A stretch of DNA of 64,000 bases from an actinobacterium LLX17. Lineage in GTDB: Bacteria > Actinomycetota > Actinomycetes > Propionibacteriales > Nocardioidaceae. The stretch is taken from NCBI GenBank assembly GCA_000471045.1, contig KI301992.1, positions 1,438,781 through 1,502,780 on the forward strand, read 5' to 3'. Of this stretch, positions 14,008 through 60,597 are shown piece by piece (the first letter of the stretch is position 1; every line of letters starts with the position of its first letter). The translations under genes were made by a program, and so were the position numbers. The notes beneath the pieces are model-generated. The model saw nothing but the letters and a program-made list of their open reading frames with translations, had not been told where the DNA came from and ran no database searches.

Positions 14008-14106
14008 CGTCCGCGGCCCCCTCCCCGAGCTTTGAAGCCTTCTGCCACGGTTCCGGCGCGAAAGCGTGGCGCAAGGCTGCAAACCTTGGGGTCAGGGGAC
14101 GACGAA
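14003..14106. repeat. Large imperfect palindrome between two terminators
   Basis: Outer arms TTCGTCGTCC (14003-14012) and GGACGACGAA (14097-14106) pair perfectly. Inside, GCCACG (14044-14049) pairs with CGTGGC (14065-14070), AGCCT (14036-14040) with AGGCT (14074-14078), and further partial pairing links the C-rich left side with the G-rich right side. The arms overlap the flanking terminator hairpins by a few bases. No ORF of interest. Confidence 0.6.
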
Positions 14107-51957: not shown

Positions 51958-52422
51958 TCACGCTAGGGCGGCGGGGTCGAGTCCCGCTTCTCGATTCCTG
52001 ACCGGTCGGGTGGCCTGCCGGGCGATGCACGGCGGCATGCTGCCCGCGAGCAGGGCCTCGCGCTGCCGGTAGACGCTGGGAGGCACCCCGACGAGCTCGG
52101 AGAACCGGGTGCTGAACGTGCCGAGCGAGGAGAAGCCGACCTCGAAGCAGACCTCGGTGACGCTGCGGTCGCCCCGCCGCAGCAGGGTCATGGCCCGCTC
52201 GATGCGCCGGGTCATGAGGTACGAGTACGGCGACTCGCCGTAGGCCCGCTTGAACTCACGGCTGAGGTGGCCGGCCGAGACGTGGATTCCCTGCGCCAGC
52301 GACTCGACGTCGAGGGGCTGGGCGTACTCGCGGTCGATGCGGTCGCGGACCCGGCGCAGCCGGGCCAGCTCACGGAGCCGCGCAAGATCGTGGGGTCGAT
52401 CCGCCTGGACGCTGCTGGTCAC
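51958..52422 (-). CDS. AraC-family transcriptional regulator (HTH near N-terminus)
   Basis: 154 residues. The two AraC helix-turn-helices are at about 38-60 (LAQGIHVSAGHLSREFKRAY) and 85-110 (VTEVCFEVGFSSLGTFSTRF); no separate ligand domain is present. It probably controls the VOC gene it precedes. GTG 52422 overlaps the rmuC TGA (GTGA). The C-terminal about 35 residues are low in known motifs. Confidence 0.88.
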   Translation of the reverse strand: MTSSVQADRPHDLARLRELARLRRVRDRIDREYAQPLDVESLAQGIHVSAGHLSREFKRAYGESPYSYLMTRRIERAMTLLRRGDRSVTEVCFEVGFSSLGTFSTRFSELVGVPPSVYRQREALLAGSMPPCIARQATRPVRNREAGLDPAALA

Positions 52423-53573
52423 GAGCCAGATCTTGCCACGTCGGGATCGAGCTCGGGCTGGATCAGCGACCGCGGCTCGACCTCGACCAGACCGGGCTCC
52501 GGCAGCCGCGACTCCCCCGGCACGCTGCTGTCGTCGAGGGCGTCGAGCTTGCGCGCCGTGACCAGGACGCGCGTCTCGAGCGAGCTGGCGAACTTGTTGT
52601 AGCTGTCGACCGTGGTGGCCAGCGACCGGCGCAGCTTCTCGACGTGGTCGGCCATCGTGCCGAGCCGGCCGTACAGCTCCTTGCCGAGGTCGAACAACAC
52701 CTTGGCGTCGTCGGTGAGGGCCTCCTGCTGCCAGGTGAACGCCACGGTCTTGAGCACCGCCCACAGGCTGACCGGCGAGGCGAGCGCGATGCGCTGCGCG
52801 AAGGCGTGCTCGAGCAGGCTGGGGTCACGTTCGAGCGCCGCGGCCAGCACCGGCTCGCTGGGGATGAAGGCGATGGTGAACTCGGGGCTGACGTCGAGCC
52901 CGGTCCAGTACTGCTTGGCGGCCAGGGCGTCGACGTGCGCCCGCACCTGGGCAGCGTGCCGGTCGAGCAGGGTCTCGCGCGAGCTCTCGTCGGCGGCGTG
53001 CGCCTCGAGGTAGGCGGCCACCGGAACCTTGGCGTCGACGGCGACCGCCTTGCCGCCGGGCAGGTGCAGCACCATGTCGGGGCGGCGGCGACCGGTCTCG
53101 GCCGTCACCGTGGTCTGCAGCGAGAAGTCGACCCGGTTGAGCAGGCCGGCGGACTCCACCAGCCGGCGCAGCTGGGTCTCGCCCCACACCCCGCGGGTGA
53201 CGTTGTTGCGCATGGCCGACGCCAGCGACTCGGCAGCGACGCGCGACTGCTCTGCCGTGGTGCGGGTGTGCAGCAGCTGCTCGGCGAGCTGTCCGTGCTG
53301 GGTGTGCCGCTGGCGCTCGAGGTCGACGACCGTCTGCTGCATCGCTCGCAGCGACTCGCGCACGGGGGCCAGCGCCTGAAGCACCTGCGCCTCGCCCTGC
53401 TCGCCGCGGCGGCTGGTCGACAGCTGCGCCTCGAGCTGGGCGACCTGCCGCTCGAGCATCTCGACGGCGACGTCCTGACCGGCCAGGCGGGCGACGCCGG
53501 CCGACCGACCGAGGTAGGCGCCGACGGCAAGACCGACGACCAGTCCGAGCACGAGGATGAGCACGAGGTCCAT
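52419..53573 (-). CDS. rmuC: DNA recombination protein RmuC
   Basis: 384 residues: one N-terminal helix (LVLILVLGLVVGLAVGAYLG), a coiled coil (about 35-115) and the RmuC endonuclease-like domain with VRGVWGETQLRRLVE-type block (read NNVTRGVWGETQLRR) and KAVAVDAKVPVAAYLEA. RmuC limits inversions at short inverted repeats in E. coli. Interestingly, a perfect 26-bp inverted repeat stands 69 bases upstream of its start. ATG 53573 is used, as the upstream frame is shadow. Confidence 0.92.
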   Translation of the reverse strand: MDLVLILVLGLVVGLAVGAYLGRSAGVARLAGQDVAVEMLERQVAQLEAQLSTSRRGEQGEAQVLQALAPVRESLRAMQQTVVDLERQRHTQHGQLAEQLLHTRTTAEQSRVAAESLASAMRNNVTRGVWGETQLRRLVESAGLLNRVDFSLQTTVTAETGRRRPDMVLHLPGGKAVAVDAKVPVAAYLEAHAADESSRETLLDRHAAQVRAHVDALAAKQYWTGLDVSPEFTIAFIPSEPVLAAALERDPSLLEHAFAQRIALASPVSLWAVLKTVAFTWQQEALTDDAKVLFDLGKELYGRLGTMADHVEKLRRSLATTVDSYNKFASSLETRVLVTARKLDALDDSSVPGESRLPEPGLVEVEPRSLIQPELDPDVARSGS

Positions 53574-53641: not shown

Positions 53642-53705
53642 CCAGATTTGCTGACTTCGCCACCGTTCGTCCTGCCGGAAACGGTGGCGAAGTCAGCAAA
53701 TCTGG
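53642..53705. repeat. Perfect 26-bp inverted repeat between rmuC and the TPR gene
   Basis: Arms 53642-53667 and 53680-53705 are exact reverse complements (CCAGATTTGCTGACTTCGCC... outer end first), with a 12-base spacer. It lies in the 198-base divergent region (53574-53771), so it is upstream of both genes and cannot be an ordinary terminator of either. Confidence 0.93.
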
Positions 53706-53771
53706 AGAAGGGCGGGGGAACACGCGCCGGGGTCGCGGTGTTGAGGGTGGGACGACCGGGAGGAGGACCCG

Positions 53772-54191
53772 ATGACCATCTACATGAAGCCGACGCTGAC
53801 CGACGAGGGCATCGCTGCGATGGAGGCCTACGACGCCTATCGGTACGCCGAGGAGCTGCTCGACTCGCGGTTCCCCCGTGAGTCCGCCCGGGTCCTCGAG
53901 CACTTGGTGGCCGACGAGCCCGGCCATGCCGGCGCCTGGGAGCTGCTGGGCCGCGCGCACTTCGCGGCCGCCCATCTGGCCCCGGCCGAGGCGGCGTTCC
54001 GCCGGCTCATCGAGCTGGAACCGACCAGCGCCTGGGCGCACACCGCCCTGGGCCTGAGCCTCGACCGGCAGAGCCGGCACCGCGAGGGCGCCGTGCAGCA
54101 CCGCATCGCCGCGGGTCTCGGCGCCGCAGGACTCGACGGTTCTGGCCGCGACGCCACACGTGTCGAGCTGGTCGACACCTCCGGCGAGTGA
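53772..54191 (+). CDS. TPR-repeat protein
   Basis: 139 residues with about two tetratricopeptide helix pairs: ESARVLEHLVADEPGHAGAW ... GRAHFAAAHLAPAEAAFRRL and SAWAHTALGLSLDRQSRHRE. Soluble, probably a protein-binding adaptor. Strong GGGAGGAGGA ribosome site before ATG 53772. The start MTIYMKPTLTDEG contains a second ATG at residue 5. Followed 42 bases later by the M50-like gene. Confidence 0.85.
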   Translation: MTIYMKPTLTDEGIAAMEAYDAYRYAEELLDSRFPRESARVLEHLVADEPGHAGAWELLGRAHFAAAHLAPAEAAFRRLIELEPTSAWAHTALGLSLDRQSRHREGAVQHRIAAGLGAAGLDGSGRDATRVELVDTSGE

Positions 54192-60171: not shown

Positions 60172-60173
60172 CG

Positions 60174-60539
60174 GTGGCGAAGTCCAGCAAGGCGGCGAAG
60201 CTCGGCGAGGACGCAGCCGACCTCGCGAAGGGCAGGACTCCACGGCGCAGCAAGGCCGCGTGGAAGATGCTCGATCGCACCTCCATCGTCGCCTCGGGCG
60301 TCCTCGCCCCCGTCGTGGCGGCCGGCGCCTGGCGGGCCGTCACCGGCAAGCGCCCGCCCACCCTGTCGCGCAACCCCGAGATCGACACCCGCGAGGCCGT
60401 GGCCTGGGCCTTCGTCGGCGGTGCGCTCGTCGAGGTCGTCAAGGTCGTGGTGCGCCGCGGCGCGGCCGAGTACTGGGTCAAGTCCACCGGCGCCCTGCCG
60501 CCGGGCATGAAGAGCACCCTCACGTCCGACTCCGACTAA
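60174..60539 (+). CDS. DUF4235 membrane protein
   Basis: 121 residues with two hydrophobic segments (VASGVLAPVVAAGAWRAV and AVAWAFVGGALVEVVKVV), the layout of DUF4235. Basic N-terminus, no catalytic motif seen. GTG 60174 is preceded by GGGAG. Likely co-transcribed with DUF3093; a strong palindromic terminator follows. Confidence 0.82.
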   Translation: MAKSSKAAKLGEDAADLAKGRTPRRSKAAWKMLDRTSIVASGVLAPVVAAGAWRAVTGKRPPTLSRNPEIDTREAVAWAFVGGALVEVVKVVVRRGAAEYWVKSTGALPPGMKSTLTSDSD

Positions 60540-60549
60540 GCACTGAACG

Positions 60550-60587
60550 ACGAACGACCGGCTCCCACGTGGGAGCCGGTCGTTCGT
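60550..60587. terminator. 38-bp perfect palindrome terminator
   Basis: Two 19-base arms with no unpaired spacer (centre between 60568 and 60569), located between the convergent DUF4235 and DUF4193 genes; suits termination in both directions. Confidence 0.88.
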
Positions 60588-60597
60588 CTGGAACAGG

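Follow-up and report, generated by a model that had tools for sequence, protein, structure and literature searches.

The perfect inverted repeat between rmuC and a divergently transcribed gene for a TPR-repeat protein is one copy of a palindrome family that is dispersed over the chromosome, and related palindromes flank genes for proteins in which an AbiEi-like region is joined to a DUF559 nuclease. In our judgement the palindromes are probably (at a rough probability of 0.58) the dispersed paired binding sites of this AbiEi-like/DUF559 protein, for which we infer binding, cleavage and mobility from sequence comparisons. The window, i.e. the whole stretch of 64 kb of DNA that was analysed, is part of a source genome of 3.0 Mb in a single contig (G000), and we infer the genus of this genome and of its congeners to be Aeromicrobium (Nocardioidaceae, Propionibacteriales). 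Coordinates of the features are given in Table 1.

Table 1. Palindrome copies, neighbouring genes and cognate gene; plain ranges are positions in the window, all others refer to the source genome G000.
Feature	Position	Strand	Remarks
Left arm (half-site) of the family-1 palindrome	53642..53667	+	frame AGATTTGC, core TGACTTCGC, CACCGTT
Spacer, 12 nt	53668..53679		near-constant length; sequence differs among copies
Right arm (half-site)	53680..53705	-	exact complement of left arm
rmuC, divergent neighbour	52419..53573	-	ATG at 53573; outside the proposed system
TPR-repeat protein gene, divergent neighbour	53772..54191	+	marker for locating the equivalent place in relatives
Second palindrome, family 2	14028..14087		degenerate, AGCTTTGAAGCCTTCTGCCACGG...; between two GC-rich terminator-like stems; cognate gene G000:C1:1234595-1235428
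Cognate gene, family 1	G000:C1:438455-439318		about 1.05 Mb from the window palindrome; bracketed by the copies at 438,302 and 439,321
Starts of 68-nt model matches, copies 1-6	24,092; 98,633; 125,904; 438,302; 439,321; 669,085
Starts of 68-nt model matches, copies 7-11	950,214; 1,492,420; 2,362,169; 2,834,766; 2,880,971		1,492,420 is the window copy
Two variant copies	387,285; 2,987,318

The two arms of the window palindrome are complementary at 26 of 26 positions and are separated by a gap of 12 nt, exactly as the initial annotation had described them. Only four inverted repeats in the window reached a score of 14 or more, and the palindrome beside rmuC ranked first. No arm match was obtained in 100 shuffled sequences, and folding of the palindrome as DNA gave -36.1 kcal/mol (z = -12.9), which bears out the claim that the repeat lies beyond chance. 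The start codons of rmuC (minus strand) and of the TPR gene (plus strand) place it upstream of both divergent genes, as had been proposed. Neither a T tract nor a terminator-like match was found at the palindrome and no known RNA family in the window, and an ungapped scan of the window with up to three mismatches detected no arm copies beyond the two arms. The similar string that had been pointed out at 60172-60191 is indeed present; however, it sits where an open frame begins, in sequence that looks coding, and is treated here as a chance resemblance.

In G000, 11 near-identical full palindromes of 64 nt and two variants were detected, and occurrence as a single copy, which had been named as evidence against a mobile hairpin, therefore does not hold. 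A covariance model (R1) built from the 11 palindromes matched 21 of 36 congeners at E ≤ 0.01, in part weakly, and none of 21 genomes of the same order from outside the genus. The exact arm had no match in the genomes of GTDB r220, from which records very near our own genome are perhaps excluded, and a search of IMG/VR with two arms also gave none. RAYT transposases (PF01797) were detected in 0 of 49 genomes of the genus, with 5 of 14 control genomes being positive, and in none of the copies read did we recognise a target-site duplication. One clean presence/absence site, occupied in G018 and empty in G059, shows no obvious duplication and could reflect a loss. By eye, the middle part of the chromosome seems poor in copies among those listed for G000, G018 and G012, with an origin-proximal tendency in some genomes.

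Sharing of the locus by rmuC is coincidental. No palindrome was present in the 220-nt region preceding the TPR gene in any of 29 other genomes read, and rmuC was found in only 7 of those 29 TPR loci. As in the window, rmuC and the TPR gene are divergent neighbours in G030, G002, G032 and G004, and in G016, G019 and G065 rmuC lies farther away. Since the rmuC-TPR gap is devoid of the palindrome in all four relatives with the same arrangement, the position beside rmuC is uninformative on RmuC, and the link to this protein that had been suggested is not retained. The idea of a REP/MITE-like mobile hairpin fared better, as the palindrome is dispersed and multi-copy, is missing from this gap in four relatives and occurs in frame within genes, whereas the RAYT-type transposase and the target-site duplication that were to accompany it were not found in the genomes and at the copies mentioned above.

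The cognate protein of family 1 has 288 residues, with an AbiEi-like region at about 13-165 and a DUF559/Vsr-like nuclease at about 185-285. When 28 members were compared with protein family models, the PADLOC AbiEi model matched the N-terminal region in 26 (best E 2.9e-19), Pfam AbiEi_4 in only 3, DUF559 and MTES_1575 each in 24, and the NCBIfam vsr model in 1. Among 87 proteins, the candidate catalytic residues S185, E188, R192, D221, E232, G235 and R251 are conserved to 100%, H238 to 98% and D248 to 99%. Searching PDB with the nuclease profile returned 3hrl ('Endonuclease-Like Protein', E = 9e-4) and 3r3p ('Mobile intron protein', E = 0.0035). Relatives of the cognate protein occur in 46 of 49 genomes of the genus, most of which have several; for the order the figure is 127 out of 147 genomes, a set of which 13 belong to the own genus. 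Among 411 candidate stretches no viral homologue of the nuclease was confirmed. At the EttA locus (L183, L034 and L192 across the genomes), G000 has the nuclease gene between two palindromes, G016 has a homologous gene (58% identity) in inverted orientation between two palindromes, and G018 has a single palindrome and no gene. This comparison of loci suggests that the gene may be placed at a solo site in either orientation. In G014, two overlapping matches make up one nuclease gene, perhaps a frameshifted pseudogene, which lies beside a perfect palindrome (L258, G014:C1:1783703-1784555).

A palindrome was present within 250 nt of the nuclease gene at 63 of 90 genes and, after 20 more had been included, at 76 of 110 (37 genomes), compared to 6 of 82 control loci (Fisher p = 3.6e-19); 34 of the 110 genes were without palindrome. 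The six positive controls are the window copy and five palindromes beside or in cobF. The 110 loci are a non-random sample, comprising the 30 best matches and 80 picked by genome from the match list. Out of 90 control loci 82 were used, cobF loci L071-L075 having been excluded for inserts or repeats and three loci skipped as shorter than 3100 bases; the cobF controls were matched in their C-terminal part only, which leaves one flank inside the gene, and control strands are uncorrected, which is immaterial when palindromes on either side are counted. The threshold for inverted repeats was a score of 14, and a slightly lower one was used for assigning palindromes to the two ends of genes. With the latter, 49 of 90 genes had an upstream palindrome (at distances of 59-142 nt from the matched start, and 192 nt in one case), 40 a downstream palindrome (at 4-147 nt) and 21 had both. 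In all of these 21 two-ended genes the arms at the two ends match, with a mean of 20.4 versus 6.3 under the null (0 of 10000 permutations), although 20 of 414 mismatched pairs of ends reached the score of 12 as well. In other genera a palindrome was found at only 7 of 17 nuclease loci, and in G125 and G092 the palindromes at the gene ends match by eye.

Arms differ strongly among nuclease clades. For 78 proteins, arm sharing was related to the identity of the N-terminal regions: arms were shared in all 10 pairs with an identity of at least 0.8, in 63% of 19 pairs between 0.7 and 0.8, and in about 1% or fewer of the pairs below 0.5. When corrected for the C-terminal region, arms were correlated with the N-terminal region (partial Mantel r = 0.32, 0/500), whereas the reverse correction gave r = -0.07 (478/500) for the C-terminal region. 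This shows that the arm sequence tracks the AbiEi-like and not the nuclease region. Solo copies had their best-matching nuclease palindrome in the own genome in 33.4 of 71 cases, when about 2 were expected with 35 genomes available; this test was limited to half-lengths of 29.5 or 30.0 and was performed without the nuclease-flanking L034, L042 and L192. In some genomes, for which part of the nuclease genes was examined, the own-genome match mostly fails (G004, 1/10; G032, 0/5; G011, 0/2; G002, 0/2; G013, 0/1).

Three nuclease paralogues of G000 each have their own palindrome family with solo copies. The paralogue at 162,750 is associated with three palindromes, one at each end and one solo, and the paralogue at 1,234,595 has an upstream palindrome, a downstream half-site and 11 further places. 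In this 1,234-kb family 10 of the 13 places contain both half-sites within three mismatches, and a control with the reversed pattern gave 0. No palindrome was seen at two other paralogues, located at 2,846,007 and, as a partial match only, at 971,166; two further protein matches are outside the set of G000 nuclease loci read.

For comparing arms, 75 distinct palindromes from 12 genomes were selected out of 87 inverted repeats by a half-length of 29.5 or 30.0; those left out include some unrelated stems and some clear family members (e.g., L188 and L199). The outer frame AGATTTGC is common to all 75, with an identity of 0.90 within and 0.89 between genomes. In the core, formed by the next 9 nt, the identity is 0.87 to the own partner arm, 0.71 to arms of the same genome and 0.43 to those of other genomes, and this genome-specificity was reached in 0 of 2000 label permutations. 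Spacers have an identity of 0.37 within the same genome versus 0.33 between genomes, and their length is nearly invariant. Orthologous intergenic sites were compared without the pair L175/L211. For eight distant pairs, the cores at such sites were 0.28-0.50 identical in seven cases and 0.72 in the remaining one, and the core identity to the own paralogues was about 0.6-0.87 in most genomes and 0.33 in G002 (two copies). Two species thus usually differ in the core at an orthologous site, and the arms are specific to the species. G012 and G029, which are more closely related, had core identities of 0.75-0.94 in four orthologous pairs. Between G018 and G059, the DNA of which is about 92-96% identical, five shared sites were read. 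At L327, L328 and L332 both arms had changed alike, TTTC being replaced by TTCC and, at two of these sites, TTTCCACC by TTCCGACC, and at L331 and L333 the arms were without joint change; for L330 there was no partner in the alignment, and L333:5714 was not alignable. Covariation was studied on 42 aligned copies of 64 nt, in which 145 cells, distributed over 17 of 26 pairs, had changed on both sides, exceeding all 500 shuffles and the slid controls. If the protein reads the arms as half-sites, such covariation would need no hairpin, because every half-site in a genome would have to follow the protein.

A subset of the palindromes is located inside genes. The 24-kb copy of G000 is in frame within cobF, the family model of which matches two stretches around the copy, and the 2,834-kb copy is likewise in frame and separates the AtuA from the ferredoxin-like domain of an atuA gene (PF07287, E = 2e-150). 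The same cobF site carries a palindrome in G030, G032 and G004; between corresponding cobF motifs eight uninserted homologues have 29-30 residues (36 in G011), as against 52-59 in the inserted ones. Palindromes in the AtuA linker are present in six genomes (G000, G011, G018, G059, G007 and G006), and an imperfect one was noticed in that of G033. When ten cobF/AtuA palindromes were compared with nuclease palindromes, six ranked the own genome first and two second or tied; the G032 cobF palindrome ranked it fifth and the G006 AtuA palindrome, which does not match the known nuclease of its genome, tenth. At the same cobF site, G016 (L075) has no palindrome and carries a stretch of 77 residues with the in-frame peptide repeat GGGAGPWAADGA. 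A palindrome of another type, CGCTGAGTGTGACGTTTGCGGGCC, and a near variant adjoin the cobF match in G065 and G028 (L084 and L089).

According to excerpts of PMC7319586, AbiEi binds two inverted repeats of 23 bp, 3 bp apart, in its own promoter, and Rv2827c binds pairs of 23-bp repeats that are 13 bp apart; the operator spans computed from figures of that source amount to 49 and 59 bp, respectively. The anchor-to-anchor span in the main palindrome family is 59-60 nt. Out of 111 nuclease-flanking palindromes, 51 could be anchored by pattern, 32 of them with a half-length of 29-30 and 4 with one of 34.5; the remaining 15 reflect mostly anchoring at an apparently wrong place. Steps of roughly one turn of the helix would agree with binding to a single face of duplex DNA, which is suggestive only.

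Because the geometry resembles that of the AbiEi and Rv2827c operators, we propose that paired half-sites are read by the AbiEi-like region while the nuclease is positioned over the spacer. The protein would bind each arm of about 23 bp as duplex DNA and in inverted orientation, so that two nuclease domains would come to lie over a spacer of near-fixed length. Cleavage in the spacer and repair from another copy would overwrite old arms with the currently recognised one, i.e. lead to concerted evolution; cleavage and repair might also insert the nuclease gene, in one or the other orientation, where only a solo palindrome had been, and new sites might occasionally be seeded. Solo copies would then be empty or vacated homing sites that are tolerated between convergent genes or in permissive linkers of proteins. 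As cutting at a dozen chromosomal sites would be costly, cleavage would have to be controlled or conditional. It is possible, though somewhat doubtful, that we are dealing with a whole, so far undescribed class of bacterial selfish site-nuclease systems, in which a rapidly evolving AbiEi-like region would drag its paired half-sites along throughout the genome by cleavage-driven gene conversion, sites at conserved positions being rewritten together in each species in a manner resembling a gene drive, and that genomes of Aeromicrobium, and of some other genera of the order at least, contain several independent families of nucleases and sites.

Other explanations account for part of these data. 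Were the palindromes merely operators by which the fusion protein represses itself and perhaps its neighbours, dispersed copies would represent a regulon or decoys and there would be no nuclease-driven spread. The AbiEi and Rv2827c operators described in the excerpts of PMC7319586, the location of upstream palindromes shortly before the matched start and the AbiEi matches in 26 of 28 N-terminal regions agree with such autoregulation. However, 40 of 90 genes have a downstream palindrome and the nuclease residues are invariant in the 87 proteins. Also, in a heuristic assignment of family-1-type palindromes (n = 74, as one more was excluded for a short flank, and with L034, L042 and L192 included) 43 were placed between convergent genes, 30 between tandem genes and 1, the window copy, between divergent genes, and some lie inside coding genes. 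With this mostly convergent or tandem placement and the copies within coding genes, few palindromes are in promoters, and we consider autoregulation on its own unlikely; the regulator site that the initial annotation had offered may be partly right in view of the AbiEi-type geometry. The 43 convergent placements, several palindromes seen directly after stop codons and the strong stem would also be expected of bidirectional transcription terminators or insulators between convergent genes. Against this function, the window copy is upstream of both neighbours and has no T tract or terminator-like match, the copies at 126 kb and at position 14028 of the window adjoin separate GC-rich terminator-like stems, and some copies are in frame in coding sequences. 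Termination predicts neither species-specific arms, nor matched arms at the ends of nuclease genes, nor covariation with the protein, and terminators or insulators thus seem improbable; a purely bidirectional terminator was dropped on account of the in-frame copies.

Template-switch correction can hold both arms of one locus complementary to each other. Lineage-specific bursts of an unrelated mobile element, combined with such quasi-palindrome correction and with the nuclease as a frequent passenger, might therefore keep the arms of a given locus complementary. This would leave unexplained why arms are shared among loci of one genome yet differ at orthologous sites, and why they track the AbiEi-like but not the nuclease region, and we hold it to be very improbable. 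REPINs mobilised by a RAYT (Y1/TnpA-REP) transposase are similar in layout, as excerpts of PMC3116915 describe dispersed pairs of inverted conserved arms with a less conserved spacer, a repeat adjacent to the cognate gene and several enzyme lineages, each with its own repeat. In the present case, however, the flanked gene encodes a different enzyme, with an AbiEi-like region and a Vsr-like nuclease instead of the Y1 transposase, for which the genus genomes were negative, and there is hardly any chance that the palindromes are REPINs. Further differences are the about 13 copies per family, a half-site that is not itself an obvious palindrome, the span of 59-60 nt between anchors, and positions that are kept between species while arms are replaced. 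The palindromes and their nuclease work like the REPIN-RAYT system and are not a member of it.

The proposed paired binding sites and their AbiEi-like/DUF559 protein also share traits with other known systems. They resemble the operators of AbiE type IV toxin-antitoxin systems in the pairs of inverted repeats of about 23 bp, the Rv2827c gap of 13 bp, the position upstream of the gene (excerpts of PMC7319586) and the N-terminal AbiEi matches, and differ from them in that the protein carries a nuclease and sites are also found downstream and chromosome-wide. With Vsr-like (EDxHD) homing endonucleases such as I-Bth0305I they have in common a nuclease region that aligns with 3r3p and 3hrl and, in 1 of 28 members, matches NCBIfam vsr; in contrast, intact sites lie on both sides of the gene, which also encodes an AbiEi-like region, and no intron or intein came to notice. 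Rickettsia palindromic elements are in-frame palindromes within protein-coding genes, for which we know of no cognate nuclease. Palindromes in frame in genes are found here as well, but those described here measure 59-64 nt and are mostly intergenic. A MITE of a DDE transposon would be expected to have a target-site duplication and a full-length parent with the same terminal repeats; at the copies read no duplication was recognised, and the nuclease units have the same repeat at both ends, with a nuclease gene enclosed. The matches listed in a literature search covering few subscription journals contained none that links DUF559 or AbiEi-nuclease proteins to dispersed palindromes, and no paper combining AbiEi with DUF559 was found in it. 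This looks like a system of DNA sites and nuclease that has so far been undescribed. If true, it would stand beside REPINs and RAYTs as a second system, of independent origin, in which a short dispersed palindrome is maintained together with its cognate enzyme. It would also assign a role to a protein family present in 127 of 147 genomes of the order, and would provide a way in which sequences scattered over a bacterial chromosome can be homogenised. Since there are many natural pairs of AbiEi-like region and half-site, the protein-DNA code would be testable and could reveal how this region reads DNA.

Elsewhere in the window, a perfect 20+20 palindrome with zero spacer (GACGAACGACCGGCTCCCAC/GTGGGAGCCGGTCGTTCGTC) at 60549-60588 is possibly a terminator. 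Upstream of the TPR gene, at 53714-53744, there is a motif GGGGGAACA ... GTTGA that by eye recurs in relatives as GGGAACA/GGAAT ... GTTGA and that we take to resemble an ECF-sigma promoter; the palindrome beside rmuC falls just outside of it.
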